From a virus, in IMG/VR virus record IMGVR_UViG_3300032736_000010, positions 1 through 23,355 of that record: DNA of 23,355 nucleotides; one strand, written 5' to 3'. Under the pieces are notes generated by a model. That model made no database searches, was not told where the DNA came from, and saw only the letters and a program-made list of their open reading frames with translations. A program made the translations under genes and the position numbers. Of this stretch, positions 15,003 through 23,355 are shown one piece after another. Positions within the stretch are counted from its first letter, which is position 1; the number at the start of each line of letters is the position of its first letter.

Positions 15003-18000
15003 TTATACTATGCCGCCGTCTTGTAAAGTCCAATGGACATCTAAATCGGCTCTGCCTGCTGCTGCTGCGCTTGTGTATTTAGTTGGCGTAAATGTAGCCG
15101 TAACGCCATTTTTAACATTCTGCGGCCCCCAACCATTGTATATTGCATCTAAATTAGTAGGCGTTAAGCTTGTATTTAACATAAATTCACTTGCATTACC
15201 TACGTTTGTAACGTCCCAATTACTAATATCAATATTTAAGTTAGCGCACTCCTGGAACATTGCCTGGATACTTATAATATCTGCCATATTCCATTCGTTT
15301 ATTCTATTAATAGTAGTTAATGTAGTACAAGAATTAAAAGCTGAATAAAAGTTTGTGGTATTAGTAAAATTAGGTACGTCTGTAACTTGCGATAAATCTA
15401 AATTTCCGCAACCTGCAAAATACAATCCAAAATTAGTACCACTAAATCCTGATCTAGTTAGTCTTAAATCTCCCCATTGTTTTATAGAAATTATTTTATC
15501 GTCATCTGTAACAACTCTAAACCCTTCTATTGTTCCTGTTATTCTAATTTCATAAATTCCTTTAACGGCGTAAGCGTGTGTTCTGTTATTATAAGCAGTA
15601 ATTGTTTCAACGTTACCGTCGCCCCAATCTACGCTAAAATTATAATTTCCTTGGCTCATAAGCCCTAACATAACGCTAAATTCATTAGTTGAACCTCCGC
15701 TTATATTTCTAGTGTCCCAAACTGAAACAAACGTTCCTGTTGAAGGCGGCACTGGGCAATTAAATAATCCTGTTGCACTTACATTTCCAACACTTGTGCC
15801 GCTAGTCGCTTGACCTGTAACAATATAATCTACAAAAGAGGCGTCTCTTACTCTTTCATTAATTCCTAAAGTTAATTCTGTAGTTGTTTGTCCGGTTATA
15901 TAACCAGTGCTGCTATCGCTACATTTTTCTAAAGTGTAATAATTTATTGTTGGTATAATTGGGCAGCCAACTTCTCCAGTGTCGGTTACTGTGCCAACGC
16001 TTGTGCCAGTTGTGGCTGTTCCTGTTACAATATATAAGTCGCTGCCAACACTAACCCTATCGTTATTAGATAGTGCTATTTCGGTAGTCTCTTGACCTGT
16101 TATCCAACCCGTGCTATTATCGCTACATTTTTCTAATGTATAATGTAATGGTATTGGCGCCGTACATTCAGTAACTCCTGTAACTTCTCCAGGCTCGCCA
16201 CCAAACAAACTAATATAAAAGTTGTTTGCCATTAAATACGAACCGCTAGAAAGTGGGCTTGTTAAATTAGCCGTATTATAAACCTTATTGCCATTTGTTG
16301 GGTATGTACCAACGCCATCGTGGTATGCCGTTATATTAGGCACTAAACCGCAAGGGCTAGGGAATTGGTCCGTGGAACGTAAAAACGCCGTTAAACTTGG
16401 CGGTATTGGACAACCTACTTCGCCAGTATCTGTAACCGTTCCAACGCTTGTACCTTCGCTAACTTCGCCAGTAACTACGTAATCTACCAAACTAGCATCT
16501 TGAACCCTATCATTAATAGCTAAAGTAATCTGCTCTGTATTTTGAGCAGTAACCCAACCAGTTGTGTCATCGCTACATTTTCTAAGTGAATAATATAAAT
16601 CTTCTAAACATTGCTCGCTTATTTTAGTAATTTCTATTGCAGTAGTTCCAGCAACTCTAAACGGTTCTGTTTCGGCGCAAAAGTCATTACTAGAACTGTC
16701 AGCATTTACTATAAACTCCTGGTAATTGCCTTCACAATCATAATATCCTATTGTAACGTTGTCAAGTAAATCATTATTTTGAACCTGGTAGGTAGAACAT
16801 TGATTTGTAGCGACAACTGGATAGGATATTTGACTACTATTAAATGTAGTTTCAATATCTGTTTGCTGATCGCCAAGGTGTGAATTAAAACTATATTGGT
16901 TCGCCTTTACATTAAATTCTAGTGTATCAATTACTAAAACTTTTTCTTGCGTGTAGGTGTTAAAATTAATGTATAAGCGGTCTATTAATTGTATTGGGGA
17001 CTTATTATCTATTTTCTTTAAAGTACCCTCAAAACGCTCCATTTTAAGCCTATTGTCGTTAATACGCTGCTGGGCCGTTAAATCTTCTATAAACTTTGGC
17101 GCAATATCGCCGCTTCTTAAAAACTTAGTTATATAACCTTCTAAGTTTAAACCAACAGGCTGCATATAACCTTTTTGAAATCTGTTAAAGCTACTGCCTT
17201 GGTAAATATCTTTGTACTTTAATTTATTAGTTAGATTTTTTAATGTTGTTTGTGAATTGCTAGTTTCTAAATTTTTAGAATCAAATATTAAAGTTTCGCT
17301 TTCAACGTCTGGCGCATCTAAATACAACAACGTTTTCCAGTTCATTTGAACGCCACCAATAAAGGCAGCAATATGAGCGCCTCCAGCATCTTTTTTAGGC
17401 TTGCTAAATCTAAAACTAATATCGTAAGGCTTATAATTTGCCGTTACATTTGGGCAGTTATAAGTTATTTCTTTTTTATATGTAAGCCATTCCCCCCTAC
17501 CAGAATAAACAAAACTGTTTACAAATGGCGTTTCAGTCCATACGCTAGTTAATTGGTCGTAATAAAAAGTTTGGTAATTATCGGTATAAGCGCCACTAAC
17601 ATATTCCCTAAATCTAGCTACTATTTGAAAGTAAACAAAGTACCTTGCAATCGTACCCTGGAAACCTCCGTTTTGCATTTGCACCTCAAAACTAAAATCA
17701 AATTTTGTATTGTCATCCTCGCTGCTTTCAGCCTTAATTAAAAACGTATTAGAAAGTATATCTTCAAAAGCGCTAGTAGTACCTAATATTTTAGCAGACT
17801 TATAACCTTTAATTCCATTTGTGCCTATGCTTACAAATTCACTATCATAAACCCAGTCTGCAAAATCGCCCTCAAAATTACCGTTGGGTATATAGTTAAG
17901 TTGCCTATCTAAATTAACAGTATTTGAAACTTCTATTAAACCACCGCTTGTTTCTTTTAAAAGGTCGTCCCCAATAGGCAAAGCATCGCTTGGTATAAAT

Positions 18001-18848
18001 ACAGTATCACCTAATATATTATTGCTTTGGTAAGCGCCTAAATAATTATATTTTCTGTAAGTTATAGCTGCAAGCGTTGTAATATCTGCATTGTTTATAA
18101 TAATCCAATCGCCATTGGCTTGAAATATACGACAATTAAACCCTGTTAAAATAGATTTTAAAACCTCTGCCGTATTAAATTTATAAGTATTTTCGTCGGT
18201 GTAAGTGCTACTATTTACAATAACATCTTCAAATACGTTAGTTATTGCAGCAGCGTTTTCCTCTTTTAAATTTGTTTTAACGTAAATATCAGCGTCAAAA
18301 CCAGTTTCTTTTAAAGACTTGTGTAAGCATTCCCAAAGCGTAACCTCGTTATTAGGCGCAACAGGAAAATCAATTCCTTTAAGTAAACCTAAACCGTCCA
18401 CGGCTTTAAAAGATACGTTAAAAGGCGCCGCAGATAGTTTCTGTTGGTAGGTGTCCTGTATTAAGAAACCTTGCCAAAATAACTGGTAATTATTTTCTGG
18501 GTCTTCGCTATTCCATAGTTCGTTATAATCCTGGTATTGGTCGTTTATGTCTTCCCAATATGGTTGCCTAGTTTCGGCGTAGTATATTTTTACTAAAAAT
18601 TCTCGTTCGTCAAAATCGTAAAAATCTTCGTAGGTAACCGCATCAGTTTGTATTAAATTAATTGCGCAGTTAGAAGCTATAATTGGGTCGTAAAAATCGT
18701 TGTCTTGCTCCCATTTAATACTAGCAGGCGAACCGGTACCTATTAACGGGTAAATATAACCGTCATAGTTTTTCTGTAAAATATCTAAACGCCTTTTATT
18801 CCCTTCCGTATCGGAAAAATCCAAACGGTATTTTGCTCCGTATGCCAT
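15003..18848 (-). CDS. Tail-tip / receptor-binding protein with C-terminal adhesin
   Basis: A 1281-residue virion protein following the tape measure gene. Residues 1-310 resemble the distal-tail/hub part of Bacteroidetes siphoviruses (YQLFWQGFLIQDTYQQKLSA). Residues 318-480 start NYIPNGNFEGDFADW, the opening of many jelly-roll carbohydrate-binding domains. Residues 540-660 look like a second hub-type region. Then come three degenerate repeats (751-815, 901-964, 969-1035). At 1064-1105, NYNFSVDWGDGNVETI and THAYAVKGIYEIRITG fit a PKD-like fold. Residues 1110-1240 show the BspA/DUF285 pattern (NEWNMADI, FQECANLNIDISNWDVTNV), a surface-binding leucine-rich type. The whole protein would join tail tip to host recognition. 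Function of each part is inferred. Confidence 0.78.
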   Translation of the reverse strand: MAYGAKYRLDFSDTEGNKRRLDILQKNYDGYIYPLIGTGSPASIKWEQDNDFYDPIIASNCAINLIQTDAVTYEDFYDFDEREFLVKIYYAETRQPYWEDINDQYQDYNELWNSEDPENNYQLFWQGFLIQDTYQQKLSAAPFNVSFKAVDGLGLLKGIDFPVAPNNEVTLWECLHKSLKETGFDADIYVKTNLKEENAAAITNVFEDVIVNSSTYTDENTYKFNTAEVLKSILTGFNCRIFQANGDWIIINNADITTLAAITYRKYNYLGAYQSNNILGDTVFIPSDALPIGDDLLKETSGGLIEVSNTVNLDRQLNYIPNGNFEGDFADWVYDSEFVSIGTNGIKGYKSAKILGTTSAFEDILSNTFLIKAESSEDDNTKFDFSFEVQMQNGGFQGTIARYFVYFQIVARFREYVSGAYTDNYQTFYYDQLTSVWTETPFVNSFVYSGRGEWLTYKKEITYNCPNVTANYKPYDISFRFSKPKKDAGGAHIAAFIGGVQMNWKTLLYLDAPDVESETLIFDSKNLETSNSQTTLKNLTNKLKYKDIYQGSSFNRFQKGYMQPVGLNLEGYITKFLRSGDIAPKFIEDLTAQQRINDNRLKMERFEGTLKKIDNKSPIQLIDRLYINFNTYTQEKVLVIDTLEFNVKANQYSFNSHLGDQQTDIETTFNSSQISYPVVATNQCSTYQVQNNDLLDNVTIGYYDCEGNYQEFIVNADSSSNDFCAETEPFRVAGTTAIEITKISEQCLEDLYYSLRKCSDDTTGWVTAQNTEQITLAINDRVQDASLVDYVVTGEVSEGTSVGTVTDTGEVGCPIPPSLTAFLRSTDQFPSPCGLVPNITAYHDGVGTYPTNGNKVYNTANLTSPLSSGSYLMANNFYISLFGGEPGEVTGVTECTAPIPLHYTLEKCSDNSTGWITGQETTEIALSNNDRVSVGSDLYIVTGTATTGTSVGTVTDTGEVGCPIIPTINYYTLEKCSDSSTGYITGQTTTELTLGINERVRDASFVDYIVTGQATSGTSVGNVSATGLFNCPVPPSTGTFVSVWDTRNISGGSTNEFSVMLGLMSQGNYNFSVDWGDGNVETITAYNNRTHAYAVKGIYEIRITGTIEGFRVVTDDDKIISIKQWGDLRLTRSGFSGTNFGLYFAGCGNLDLSQVTDVPNFTNTTNFYSAFNSCTTLTTINRINEWNMADIISIQAMFQECANLNIDISNWDVTNVGNASEFMLNTSLTPTNLDAIYNGWGPQNVKNGVTATFTPTKYTSAAAAGRADLDVHWTLQDGGIV
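15744..15944 (-). repeat. Tail-fibre protein repeat unit 3
   Basis: Codes residues 969-1035, NYYTLEKCSDSSTGYITGQ through NCPVPPS. It shares with the other units the frame Y-(T/S)-L-x-K-C-S-D...T-G-(W/Y)...V-T-G...G-T-S-V-G...C-P. It is the most divergent at its end (SATGLFNCP against DTGEVGCP). Confidence 0.75.
15957..16148 (-). repeat. Tail-fibre protein repeat unit 2
   Basis: Codes residues 901-964, LHYTLEKCSDNSTGWITGQ through DTGEVGCPI. It directly precedes unit 3 and is separated from unit 1 by an 85-residue unrelated stretch containing two more cysteines. Cysteines at both ends of each unit may form a disulfide or metal site. Confidence 0.75.
16404..16598 (-). repeat. Tail-fibre protein repeat unit 1
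   Basis: Codes residues 751-815, LYYSLRKCSDDTTGWVTAQ through DTGEVGCPIPP. The end (GTSVGTVTDTGEVGCPI) is identical to that of unit 2, while the start differs, which points to duplication followed by drift or partial exchange. Confidence 0.75.
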
Positions 18849-18852
18849 ATTG

Positions 18853-21297
18853 TTATTTTATTCTGGATCTTGTTTTATCTGCTCTTTGCAAAGCTACTAC
18901 TAAATCTTGACCCCTTACAATGAACTCGCCGTTTACGTTTACATTACCGCCACCGCCATTATTACCACCCATAAGGTTTTGCAATTTATTTAAAGGCGCT
19001 ATAACCTCTGGATTGCTTTTTGCACCTGGATATTCCCCTACTAAAGCATTTACAGGGCCGCTAACAATACCCCCTTTAGCAAAGGCAGTTTGACCACCTC
19101 CGCCGCCACCAGCTATTTTACCAGCTTGCGCTTTAGCAAAAGAACCTAATGCAATTAACGCTATACCACCTGCAATTGCAATTGCGGGGTTTAATGTTTG
19201 TAATGCTTTTTTTATACCTTCAACTCCAATACCAATTGAAATGGCTAATTTACCAAGTTGAACAGCCATATTACCTACGGTGCCTAATATAACAGTAGAT
19301 AAACTTTGTACTAAATTACCACCACCAGCAAGCGCACTTCCAAGGGCTTCGCCAATTCCTACTGCTAAATCATTTAAACCGCCTGTAACAATTTCACTAA
19401 GCCCAACGTTAAATGCTGATGCATTTTCTAAAATTTTATTATTACCTTCTTCAAAACCTATGGCTGCATTACTTACGCTTTCGTGAAGACTTCCGTAAGA
19501 ATCTTTAACCACATTAGCGAAAGTTTCTACATTTGAAGTATCTAAAGCGTTTTCTAAGTTTTGCCCCATTGATAAAAGCAAATCGTCTACCCCAGAAATA
19601 TCTCTTTCCATTTCAGATAAAAGCATATCTAGATCGTCTGGGACTGGTAATTGTGCTTTTGTTGTGTTTTTAGTAGGTGTTTTTTTAGGCTCAGGCGTTG
19701 CATTAGGTGTTAATATACTGCCGTAATCTTTAGCTTTTGGGGCTTGGCCTACATTAGAATCAATTTGCCCAACTCCGGAAGCTGCCGCTGCTGCTTTGCC
19801 TGCCGCTTTTCCTATCTTATCAGCTTCTGCCATAGCTAACCTGCCGGCAATTGACATTGGCGCAGCAATTCCACTTACAGCGGTTTTTAACTGTTCCCAA
19901 GTGCTTAGTGAAGGTGCAATTTGATTTGCAGCAGTAACAAATGCAGTACCAACCGCTAAAACTCCCGCAGCAATAGCAACGTAAGGGTTAGCAAGCATCG
20001 TTATATTTAAAGTTTTTACTCCAGCAATAAGTTTACCAATTACGGCGCTACTAGCAACCGTTGAAATTACCCCAGACAACGCGCCAAATGCAGTAATTAT
20101 TTGACCAACGACAACAAGCGCTGGCCCTAATACGGTTATAATACCGCCTAATATAATAATAGCTTTTTTAGCTTCTGGGCTTAATTCCTGAAAACCTTTA
20201 AATAAATTCATTAAAGCCTTAGACGCGGCTTTTATATAAGGTAAAAACGTTTTTAATAACTCGCCTCCTAATTCAGTAAAAGCTACCCTAAGTTCGTTTA
20301 AACTTTTTTGTAATTTAAAAGATGCACTTTTTGAAGTTGCTTCAAACGCTTTAGCAGTTGCCCCTTGCGTTTTAGTCATATTATCAAATATCTGCCTAGT
20401 AGTATCTACGTTGGCGCCTAGTAAATCCATTACCCCGGATAAGGCCCTAACGTTTCCAAAAACTCTTTGAGCAGCGGTGTCATTACCTTCAAAATTTGCT
20501 TTTAATATTTCTAATGTAGCTAGTAAACCGTCTTCTTTTAAAGACTTTCTTAAACCAGCACTTGAAAGGCCCATTTGTTTTAGCGCCTGCTCTGCGTCTG
20601 TTGTGGGTTTTAATAAACTAGCAAATATACCCCTAACTTGTGTCGCGGCTTCTGCGGCATTTGTACCAGTCCTAGAAAGTGCAGCAAATGCAGCACCAAC
20701 TTCGCCAAAAGAAACACCCATATTTGAAGCAATAGGCAAAACACGGCCCATTGAAGCAGCTAATTCCGCAGCTTCCAGTTTACCTTCTCTAACTGCGGCA
20801 ACCATTACGTCGGTCGCATCGCTAGCACTAAGAACCTGCGAACCGTATGCGTTCATAGCAGAAGTAGCTAAGTCGGCAACAATTTTAGTTTCGCCTAACC
20901 CTACCGCAGAAGCCTTTAACGAAGCGTTTAATACGTCCATTGCTTCGCTTCCACGCAAACCAGCAGAAGTTATAAAAAACAAAGCATCTGCCGCATCGTT
21001 AGCGCTTACGCCTGTTTCAGAAGCCATTTTCTTAGCAGCTTCGCCCATTTTATCTACTTCGGCACTTGCTACTCCTACTAACGATTTTATCTTGGTCATA
21101 GACTTGTCAAAGTCCACGCCCATTTTAATAGCAGCGCCACCAGCTAAAGCTAAAGGCAAAGATAGTTTTGAAAGGCTAGAACCTATCCCAGAAACACTTT
21201 TACCAAATGATTTTAGTTTGCTGCTCGCAGTATTTAAAGAGGCACTTAACCTAGAGGCGTCCCCTGTTAATAATACCTTTAATTCATTAGTAGCCAT
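18853..21297 (-). CDS. Tail tape measure protein, TP901 core type
   Basis: An 814-residue protein that sets tail length and leaves with the DNA. Residues 1-50 are Ser/Leu/Lys-rich. Residues about 60-330 match the TP901 tape-measure core: GVDFDKSMTKIKSLVGVASA, ETGVSANDAADALFFITSAG, VGLGETKIVADLATSAMNAY, AASMGRVLPIASNMGVSFGE, and GTNAAEAATQVRGIFASLLK. Two hydrophobic zones (about 380-430 and 690-735), rich in Ile, Val, Gly and Ala, could cross a membrane on ejection. A Gly run (GGGGGG) precedes the C-terminal domain. At roughly 1.5 angstrom per residue the tail would be near 120 nm, a family rule applied here. The gene follows the chaperone pair, the standard order. Confidence 0.93.
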   Translation of the reverse strand: MATNELKVLLTGDASRLSASLNTASSKLKSFGKSVSGIGSSLSKLSLPLALAGGAAIKMGVDFDKSMTKIKSLVGVASAEVDKMGEAAKKMASETGVSANDAADALFFITSAGLRGSEAMDVLNASLKASAVGLGETKIVADLATSAMNAYGSQVLSASDATDVMVAAVREGKLEAAELAASMGRVLPIASNMGVSFGEVGAAFAALSRTGTNAAEAATQVRGIFASLLKPTTDAEQALKQMGLSSAGLRKSLKEDGLLATLEILKANFEGNDTAAQRVFGNVRALSGVMDLLGANVDTTRQIFDNMTKTQGATAKAFEATSKSASFKLQKSLNELRVAFTELGGELLKTFLPYIKAASKALMNLFKGFQELSPEAKKAIIILGGIITVLGPALVVVGQIITAFGALSGVISTVASSAVIGKLIAGVKTLNITMLANPYVAIAAGVLAVGTAFVTAANQIAPSLSTWEQLKTAVSGIAAPMSIAGRLAMAEADKIGKAAGKAAAAASGVGQIDSNVGQAPKAKDYGSILTPNATPEPKKTPTKNTTKAQLPVPDDLDMLLSEMERDISGVDDLLLSMGQNLENALDTSNVETFANVVKDSYGSLHESVSNAAIGFEEGNNKILENASAFNVGLSEIVTGGLNDLAVGIGEALGSALAGGGNLVQSLSTVILGTVGNMAVQLGKLAISIGIGVEGIKKALQTLNPAIAIAGGIALIALGSFAKAQAGKIAGGGGGGQTAFAKGGIVSGPVNALVGEYPGAKSNPEVIAPLNKLQNLMGGNNGGGGNVNVNGEFIVRGQDLVVALQRADKTRSRIK

Positions 21298-21337: not shown

Positions 21338-21664
21338 TTAATTAAGTACCTTATCTGCGAGCGCTTTAAACGCCTCAAATTCTTCTTTAGTAGACTTAGG
21401 CCCACTAGGTTTATTATAAACGTCCTGGGGTAGTTTAAATAGCTTATCTGGGGTAATTAGGTCGCGTTTTTTACCTACGTTAGTATTATATACCATAGAA
21501 GATAAATACCTAAACATTTCCCATTGTAGATTTGTATTGATTAAAAAATTTTCCCCCAACAGAGCGTTTTCCTTCCACGTATGCTTCCAAAACTTATCCG
21601 GTTCAATACCGGCTTGCCCTATATAATAGTCGGTTAAATCCTCCCACGTTAAGGAAGCTGCTAC
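21338..21664 (-). CDS. Tail assembly chaperone T part, made by -1 frameshift
   Basis: This frame continues the upstream chaperone gene after a -1 shift: reading enters at G 21664 and gives VAASLTWEDLTDYYIGQAG and on to the stop at 21338, 108 residues. The shifted frame has no ATG between its upstream stop (about 21702) and the middle of the frame; the only early alternative is a TTG at 21559, which would cut off the best-conserved part (LTWEDLTDYYIG, FWKHTWKENALLGENF). That explains why a simple ORF call would shorten it. The fusion is about 234 residues. In lambda gpG/gpGT and relatives, the G part coats the tape measure and the T part recruits the tube protein. The position between tube and tape measure genes agrees. 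Confidence 0.82.
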   Translation of the reverse strand, partial: VAASLTWEDLTDYYIGQAGIEPDKFWKHTWKENALLGENFLINTNLQWEMFRYLSSMVYNTNVGKKRDLITPDKLFKLPQDVYNKPSGPKSTKEEFEAFKALADKVLN

Positions 21665-22041
21665 TTTTTTGTCGTCGCCTTTGTAGGTTTTGCATTCCTA
21701 CTTATGCCGCCGTTTAAATCATTGCCTAAAATACGGCTTTCGGTAAGCGTATTAACCATTTCATTAAACTGTTCAGAAGTAACATCGTCTAACCAAGCGC
21801 CAACTTTATACAAATTGTAATCTATTTCGTTGCCTTCTTCTTGGTCGTTTGCTAATAAACCAGAATAAACAAGCGCCCTAATTGTATTAAGATTTAAGGA
21901 ACTAGAAAAAACTTTGTCTATTTGGTCAAGTGAAATTTTAAGTTCGTCCGTAAAGGCCGCCCAGAAATTCATTGAAAAGTGAAGTGTTCGGTTTTTCCCA
22001 CCAATAACTAGCGAGTAGTACCCTCTTTTTTTGTTTGCCAT
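21661..22041 (-). CDS. Tail assembly chaperone G part
   Basis: A 126-residue protein between the tail tube and tape measure genes. It starts MANKKRGYYSLVIGGKNRTL, has HFSMNFWAAFTDELKISLDQ, and a helical core with LARYSG-like LVYSGLLAND. The pattern of a short beta N-terminus followed by N-x-x-x-x-x-F and L-x-A-L-V-(Y/W)-(A/S)-G-L matches small tail chaperones of GTA gp11/gpG type. The C-terminus (RNAKPTKATTKK) is basic and disordered and ends on the slippery site. Most ribosomes would stop at the TAG at 21663-21661, making the short form; a minority would shift to make the fusion. The start has AAGGAAAC eight bases upstream, one of the few SD-like leaders here. Confidence 0.85.
   Translation of the reverse strand: MANKKRGYYSLVIGGKNRTLHFSMNFWAAFTDELKISLDQIDKVFSSSLNLNTIRALVYSGLLANDQEEGNEIDYNLYKVGAWLDDVTSEQFNEMVNTLTESRILGNDLNGGISRNAKPTKATTKK
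21664..21670 (-). promoter_or_regulatory. Programmed -1 frameshift site, A AAA AAG
   Basis: The minus-strand heptamer A AAA AAG is in the zero frame as AAA AAG with the TAG stop immediately after it, the classic X XXY YYZ arrangement. Downstream, CTTCC (about 21656) can pair with GGGAG, and CCGGT with ACCGG further on, as possible stimulators. Confidence 0.85.
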
Positions 22042-22111: not shown

Positions 22112-22522
22112 CTATGCGTTTGCAGACTTCACAATAGCGCCAGTAATGGTAATTGAACCACTATAAGATACTGGGCTTTCCATTTCAGCAGATTGCTCAA
22201 TACTTGAAATGTAACCTTCGGCGGTGTAAATAGCATCGCCAGAAGCAGCCGTTCCAAATACCGCAGTTATTTGCGTTCTGTTAATAATGTAATCTGCTAA
22301 TTCAATTGCGTTAGCGGTGTCGGTATAATCTACTAACCCCTCAAAAGAAATTTCTCCAGACCTTACGCCAGAAATAACCTCTTGCCAACCAGCGCTATTT
22401 TTAGTAGTCGCCTCTGGTAAATCGTGTGAAATAGTAAGAGTACACGAAGTAGTGTGTCCTACTGTGATATCTTCTACTTTAAGTAAAAGGTTAGTTCCGT
22501 TAAATACTCCTGTTGTTGCCAT
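22112..22522 (-). CDS. Major tail tube protein, TP901-1 type
   Basis: A 136-residue protein of the TP901-1-like major tail protein family, whose hexameric rings stack to form the tail tube. It starts MATTGVFNGTNLLLKVEDIT, then SCTLTISHDLPEATTKNSAG and GVRSGEISFEGLVDYTD, the signature stretch of this family, and ends with a beta-rich ESPVSYSGSITITGAI. Length is typical. It is followed by a leaky-terminator-like hairpin and the chaperone genes. The AT-rich 180-base spacer upstream carries a promoter-like box, agreeing with strong late expression. Confidence 0.9.
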   Translation of the reverse strand: MATTGVFNGTNLLLKVEDITVGHTTSCTLTISHDLPEATTKNSAGWQEVISGVRSGEISFEGLVDYTDTANAIELADYIINRTQITAVFGTAASGDAIYTAEGYISSIEQSAEMESPVSYSGSITITGAIVKSANA

Positions 22523-22702: not shown

Positions 22703-23355
22703 TTAATTACAAGGTGTTTCGTTATATAGTGTTGTTACTTCTCCTGCGGTAATTGGTTTATTAAAAATTCTAAGCTGGTCTAATCTTTCGTTATAGTATT
22801 GCGTATTAAAATTACCAGCCGTACCAATTGCAACCCCTATATCTAATCCAGAACCTCCATAAGGATTTGAAGGTAACGATTGAGTGCTTACCAATGTGTT
22901 ATTAATATATACTTTTCTTTGAAGGTTAGGAATATCTATTGAAACCGCAATATGATGCCATTGTGAATCATTAAATGTTTGTGTAGTTTGATAATCAGCG
23001 GCTACATTGCTATATCTTGTATAAAAATACAAAGTTCCATCAGCAAAATAATAAACATTTAAACTAATACCAAATCCATAATAAACACTATAAATAACAC
23101 TATTCCCAGCCAAACCAGGCGAACTTGCATTCATCCAAAAAGAAACAGATTGAGATACTTTTTGATTTAAAACTCCAGATAATCCATTACTACCACGACC
23201 TAAGTCTATATAACCATTGTTAAAATCAGCTGCCAAATCAAAATACCCTTGTGGGTAAGTAACATTTGTTTGTACTCCGTTATAGTTACCACTTAAATCA
23301 AGAGGCGAACCATCTAAAGGATAAGCAGCAATACAACTACTATCTCCTAATATAT
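22703..23355 (-). CDS. LamG/concanavalin-A-like lectin-domain protein, 5' end cut
   Basis: The frame is open from the right window edge to TAA at 22705-22703, giving 217 residues; a TTG at 23236 that could be taken for a start lies inside a continuous domain. Upstream residues read SCIAAYPLDGSPLDLSGNYN, then VTYPQGYFDLAADFNNGYID, the standard opening of a LamG-like jelly-roll. Later come SVSFWMNAS, WHHIAVSID, VYINNTLVSTQ and the closing RLDQLRIFNKPITAGEVTTL, all expected in order. The fold binds glycans or proteins. Position between the (unseen) neck genes and the tail tube suggests a virion decoration or head fibre. The protein ends 12 residues after the domain. Confidence 0.88.
   Translation of the reverse strand, partial: ILGDSSCIAAYPLDGSPLDLSGNYNGVQTNVTYPQGYFDLAADFNNGYIDLGRGSNGLSGVLNQKVSQSVSFWMNASSPGLAGNSVIYSVYYGFGISLNVYYFADGTLYFYTRYSNVAADYQTTQTFNDSQWHHIAVSIDIPNLQRKVYINNTLVSTQSLPSNPYGGSGLDIGVAIGTAGNFNTQYYNERLDQLRIFNKPITAGEVTTLYNETPCN

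Follow-up and report, generated by a model that had tools for sequence, protein, structure and literature searches.

Conserved slippery heptamers point to a −1 frameshifted tail assembly chaperone gene in a probable flavobacterial siphovirus

Gene layout and protein identity at the chaperone locus

In the IMG/VR virus record IMGVR_UViG_3300032736_000010, the complete 23,355 bases of which were analysed here (hereafter the window) and which carries nearly all of its genes on the minus strand, we examined a pair of overlapping minus-strand reading frames between the genes for the tail tube and tape measure proteins (flanks matching PF06199 and PF10145). Chaperones of the lambda G/GT type occupy the same genomic slot, with the same neighbours, and comparison with related loci makes it very likely that the pair is a tail assembly chaperone gene of this type, giving two products via −1 slippage on the heptamer A AAA AAG. 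The zero frame starts with an ATG at 22041 and ends ACA AAA AAG TAG, with the stop at 21663..21661, while the −1 frame opens at 21697, nine codons ahead of the heptamer, and runs to a TAA at 21340..21338. Joining the zero frame to 108 codons of the −1 frame gives a fusion of 234 residues.

An earlier note, made from the letters of this DNA alone, had described the heptamer with its adjoining TAG, without naming the strand, followed by a 108-codon −1 frame lacking an early start. Each of these features was recovered, the heptamer at 21670..21664 on the minus strand and the open frame ending at 21338. The −1 frame of the window contains no ATG, GTG or TTG before codon 37, its earliest start-like codons being a TTG at 21559 (codon 37) and an ATG at 21517 (codon 51). 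A mechanical list of open reading frames (ORFs) accordingly holds a 73-residue TTG-start fragment for the second frame, with 35 residues lost, exactly the truncation that had been predicted for a simple gene caller.

Table 1 Features of the chaperone locus and its neighbours in the window
Feature	Position	Strand	Description and support
Zero-frame tail assembly chaperone (gpG-like)	21664..22041	−	126 residues, ATG start; ORF, phrog_2115, AlphaFold model, ratio of nonsynonymous to synonymous substitution rates (dN/dS) ~0.16 in clade
Slippery heptamer A AAA AAG	21664..21670	−	AAA in P site and AAG in A site; all 161 distinct junctions have an in-frame heptamer
Zero-frame stop TAG	21661..21663	−	Directly 3' of heptamer; at a distance of 0–7 codons in relatives
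−1 frame extension (T-like domain)	21338..21667	−	108 codons after slipped AAA, plus stop TAA; weak Phage_TAC_6 / Phage_tail_T matches
Candidate downstream RNA stem	21612..21658	−	5' arm GCTTCCTTA (21658..21650), 3' arm TAGGGCAAGC (21621..21612)
Upstream neighbour, tail tube protein	22112..22522	−	PF06199, phrog_1407
Downstream neighbour, tape measure protein	18853..21297	−	PF10145, phrog_1533

Besides gene position, several protein-level comparisons fit the chaperone identity that the earlier note had proposed. The zero-frame family matched the profile of phrog_2115, a family of phage tail proteins, in all 31 of 31 members, and the AlphaFold model of the zero-frame product (mean predicted local distance difference test score, pLDDT, 78) was similar to predicted phage proteins, several of which are named 'tail assembly chaperone'. 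The −1 domain was modelled with a mean pLDDT of 85 and gave weak Pfam matches to Phage_TAC_6 in 8 of 31 members and to Phage_tail_T in one of 31. A Foldseek search of the zero-frame model against the PDB returned no significant match, VIA-align of the same model gave low Z values only, tblastn of either half against the named-phage collection found no match, and one scan of the genome collection came back empty.

Slippery heptamers and coding frames in relatives

Scans of viral contigs yielded several hundred relatives of each half. Both halves were located by profile hidden Markov models in 177 loci and in 155 more, giving 332 loci with 161 distinct junctions of 170 bases. The second half stood at −1 in every locus, and an in-frame heptamer of the form X XXY YYZ lay within the short overlap in every one of the distinct junctions. 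The most frequent type was G GGA AAG (80 junctions), which is also the lambda G-T site (PMC7618472), followed by A AAA AAA (44), the A AAA AAG of the window (20), C CCA AAG (13), G GGA AAC (2) and A AAA AAT (2).

A single heptamer is weak evidence, since in so AT-rich a genome a ten-codon overlap has about a one in ten chance of containing one; the genes of the window hold 55 in-frame X XXY YYZ heptamers per 6,240 codons, A AAA AAG among them three times. Across relatives the pattern is far from this background: with codons shuffled over the whole gene, a heptamer was expected in 2.7 of 30 clusters, with codons shuffled within the last 25 in 4.8, and it was observed in all 30. Of the heptamers, 36 were in the correct phase, as against nine and seven in the two others. 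When the junction was excluded from the tree, the type of heptamer was seen to switch three times or more, and these swaps with slipperiness kept are the strongest evidence for the proposed frameshifting. A shift that persists while the type switches practically rules out chance and sequencing error, and also transcriptional slippage as a general mechanism.

The emphasis of the earlier note on the adjacency of heptamer and stop did not hold up. Heptamer and stop adjoin in 60 of the 161 junctions and are one to seven codons apart in the remainder, and in two relatives (L017 and L157) the stop has been relocated and the heptamer retained, indicating that the adjacency in the window is incidental. 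A shift driven by the stop codon was dropped as a candidate for the same reason, the stop position moving while the heptamer stays put. A Shine-Dalgarno-like stimulator was also considered; the window has an AAAGG seven nucleotides upstream of the heptamer, which is not conserved in the clade.

Both frames bear the marks of coding sequence. In the window clade, dN/dS (NG86) was 0.165 for the zero frame and 0.139 for the −1 frame, and in two G GGA AAG clades it was 0.158 and 0.181 and, respectively, 0.107 and 0.100; by this measure, both frames are under purifying selection. The −1 domain carries the strongly conserved motifs IGQ.G..P..FW..TW.E and LPQD. A conserved start for the second frame was not found, 97 of the 161 junctions having none at all between the opening of the frame and 20 codons past the heptamer. 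The comparison of homologues that the earlier note had suggested thus found both frames conserved as protein, no relative lacking a slippery sequence and no start shared by the second frames, in line with the −1 frameshifting it had proposed.

If the two frames encoded separate proteins, translation of the second would have to begin inside it, at TTG 21559 or ATG 21517, and might be coupled to translation of the first. Start codons do occur in the −1 frame, where ORF callers output such a fragment, but they sit inside the conserved domain, and the most conserved part of this domain (IGQ.G, FW..TW.E) is encoded upstream of TTG 21559 and would be lost. In addition, no start is conserved among the junctions, and separate translation gives the heptamer no reason for being retained and interchanged; we regard this explanation as very improbable. 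We give no more credence to a fusion made by transcriptional slippage on the A-tract, for which the six-A run of the window and the longer runs (A9) of some relatives and of Flavobacterium phage 11b could be cited. Polymerase slippage usually needs runs of 8–9 or more, so that six A are short for it, and at the same place the majority of relatives have G GGA AAG or C CCA AAG, neither with a long homopolymer.

A +2 shift formally gives access to the second frame, as would a hop over the stop. Against either stand the canonical −1 heptamer, correctly phased in each of the relatives (36 in that phase versus 9 and 7 in the others), and the relocated stops of L017 and L157 with their heptamers kept; this route appears less probable still. 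Least credible, to the point of being negligible, is a sequencing or assembly error in what is truly a single frame. The homopolymer at the junction would favour such errors, but the identical frame break recurs across many metagenomes, in 161 distinct junctions whose stop and heptamer sequences vary, and in none of the loci do both halves share one frame.

Under −1 slippage, most ribosomes would terminate at the TAG and release the 126-residue short chaperone. In a minority, tRNA-Lys on AAA in the P site and on AAG in the A site would slip one base backwards on the A AAA AAG heptamer, and these ribosomes would pass the TAG to make the 234-residue fusion bearing the −1 domain, with a predicted junction peptide of ...ATTKK-VAASLTWEDLTDYYIGQ... 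(...TTKK-VAAS...). In lambda, gpG and gpGT are made at about 30:1, G binding the tape measure protein and T the tail tube protein (PMC5009743). By analogy, the short form would coat the tape measure protein, the fusion would recruit tail tube subunits, and the efficiency of slippage would set the ratio of short form to fusion needed for tail assembly. That slippage occurs, how efficient it is and what both products do are inferred from this parallel.

A downstream RNA stem

In relatives with G GGA AAG, a stem of 7 base pairs (up to 12) starts five to six nucleotides past the heptamer (for example at L127:2600-2671 and L022:3378-3446), with its 3' partner about 40 nucleotides further on, in the stretch encoding IGQ[AV]G. 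The 7-base-pair stem forms in 41 of 42 distinct G GGA AAG sequences, if a few mismatches at the terminal seventh pair are allowed, and two-sided changes were seen at three pairs (one from G-C to C-G, two from A-U to G-C). The 12 distinct arm pairs allow 84 base pairs, of which 77 form; permutation gave a mean of 67.9 and a maximum of 76 (none of 10,000 permutations as high). Pairing of the arms also exceeded a null of synonymous recoding (mean z −4.2; p ≤ 0.05 in 41 of 42), and covariation reached 0.307 versus 0.197 and 0.143 versus 0.073, with none of 500 shuffles as high. Because MAFFT misplaced the stem arms when length classes were mixed, these classes were aligned separately.

Five to six changes per covarying pair were counted on the tree, and both sides changed together in 4/4, 3/3 and 3/3 independent comparisons, numbers too small for significance alone. 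Block recombination of the whole segment may have contributed to the co-change of the arms, as between L034 and L022. The downstream stem probably stimulates slippage in many relatives. The literature searched, in which coverage of key papers is incomplete, gave no description of a comparable stem where a phage chaperone gene frameshifts. Three members of an A AAA AAA lineage (L215, L216 and L217) have a compact hairpin, GCGTA...TACGC, shortly past the heptamer, which is a structure of another type.

The window itself can be folded into a stem of nine base pairs with a one-nucleotide bulge, starting five nucleotides past the heptamer, and across the A AAA AAG clade this stem is nearly invariant and paired in 98% of cells. 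The 5'-arm codons GCT TCC TTA showed zero synonymous change in 14 relatives, for which other degenerate codons give a chance of about 0.005–0.009, a figure computed post hoc, when the pattern had already been seen. Swapping of arms within the clade made almost no difference, and Rfam gave no match in the window at the gathering score. For the window, a stimulatory stem is offered as a suggestion only.

Several results weigh against our interpretation of the locus. In the window clade, the stem was not distinct from the synonymous null (z −0.8 to −1.4; near-identical L002) and differed little from control windows (−0.86 versus −0.60). At the protein level, the Pfam matches of the −1 domain fall under the curated cut-offs, and the HK97 chaperone structure 2ob9 is a weak match to the zero-frame model (Z 2.4), which proves nothing alone.

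Heptamer type and downstream stem might co-evolve as a two-part tuning of the chaperone frameshift in flavophage-like viruses, with a strong covarying stem in the G GGA AAG lineages, a weaker one in the A AAA AAG lineage, and a ratio of short to long product that is kept steady. We put this forward tentatively and lean slightly against it.

Known systems, host and significance

One close parallel, lambda gpG/gpGT, uses the G GGA AAG that is also found in many relatives of the window. It differs from the window, where an A AAA AAG heptamer abuts the stop, and from the many relatives with a covarying downstream stem, none having been reported for lambda G-T in the literature searched. The same A AAA AAG heptamer occurs in Escherichia coli dnaX, together with a downstream hairpin (PMC3711429). 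Unlike the window pair, dnaX is a cellular gene in which the shift shortens the product, and its Shine-Dalgarno-like stimulator has no conserved equivalent in the window clade.

Among named phages, Cellulophaga phage phi18:2 carries gp54 and gp55 (L182:12519-13230) adjacent to each other between the tail tube and tape measure genes. Both halves of the window pair match these proteins by predicted fold, the proteins being identified by length and position, and the gp55 frame matches the −1 profile at 31.6 bits. In contrast to the window, gp55 lies in the +1/−2 frame relative to gp54, with a nine-A run in the overlap, and the two are annotated as hypothetical proteins; −2 frameshifting or transcriptional slippage is possibly at work here. 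In Flavobacterium phage 11b, gp38 and gp39 (L183:11365-12029), likewise both annotated as hypothetical proteins, show a zero frame ending AAA AAG TAG and a similar domain in the −1 frame, although the relationship is very distant (11.4 bits). As foreseen for such genes, the annotation of gp39 begins at an internal ATG and truncates it. From its sequence, gp38/gp39 is a probable −1 frameshifted chaperone. Its G AAA AAG site was set aside as the slippery site, relatives pointing to an A AAA AAA that lies upstream, within a run of nine A. The upstream A-run is kept in the 11b relatives L341-L384.

The portal protein of the window has its closest named-phage relatives in Cellulophaga phages and Flavobacterium phage 11b, which makes the flavobacterial host suggested by the earlier note plausible; the window is probably a siphovirus of a marine flavobacterium. 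The chaperone gene was also met on contigs binned as a Woesearchaeota archaeon (L116) and a gammaproteobacterium (L117). The L117 contig apparently is an IMG/VR record too (L261). Both are probably misbinned phage contigs and give no host evidence.

Frameshifted tail chaperones are a well-known phage device, and the newest element is the covarying stem in the relatives, a part that specialists may not expect. The loci add several hundred natural variants from phages of a phylum in which the device seems little documented and is annotated as two hypothetical genes. Their heptamer swaps and compensatory stem changes form a ready series for studying how a protein ratio depends on slippery site and RNA structure. 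The variant set would also let gene callers recover the missing half of a chaperone that is easily misannotated in these phages.

Elsewhere in the window, a gene at 15003-18848 on the minus strand encodes a tail protein of 1,281 residues in which a unit of some 65 residues (LEKCSDxSTGWITGQ...) occurs three times in similar form, and which has a C-terminal DUF285 match and a PKD match below the cut-off. Upstream of the tail tube gene, at the contig end, a minus-strand gene at 22703-23353 encodes a Laminin-G/concanavalin-like protein (PF13385).
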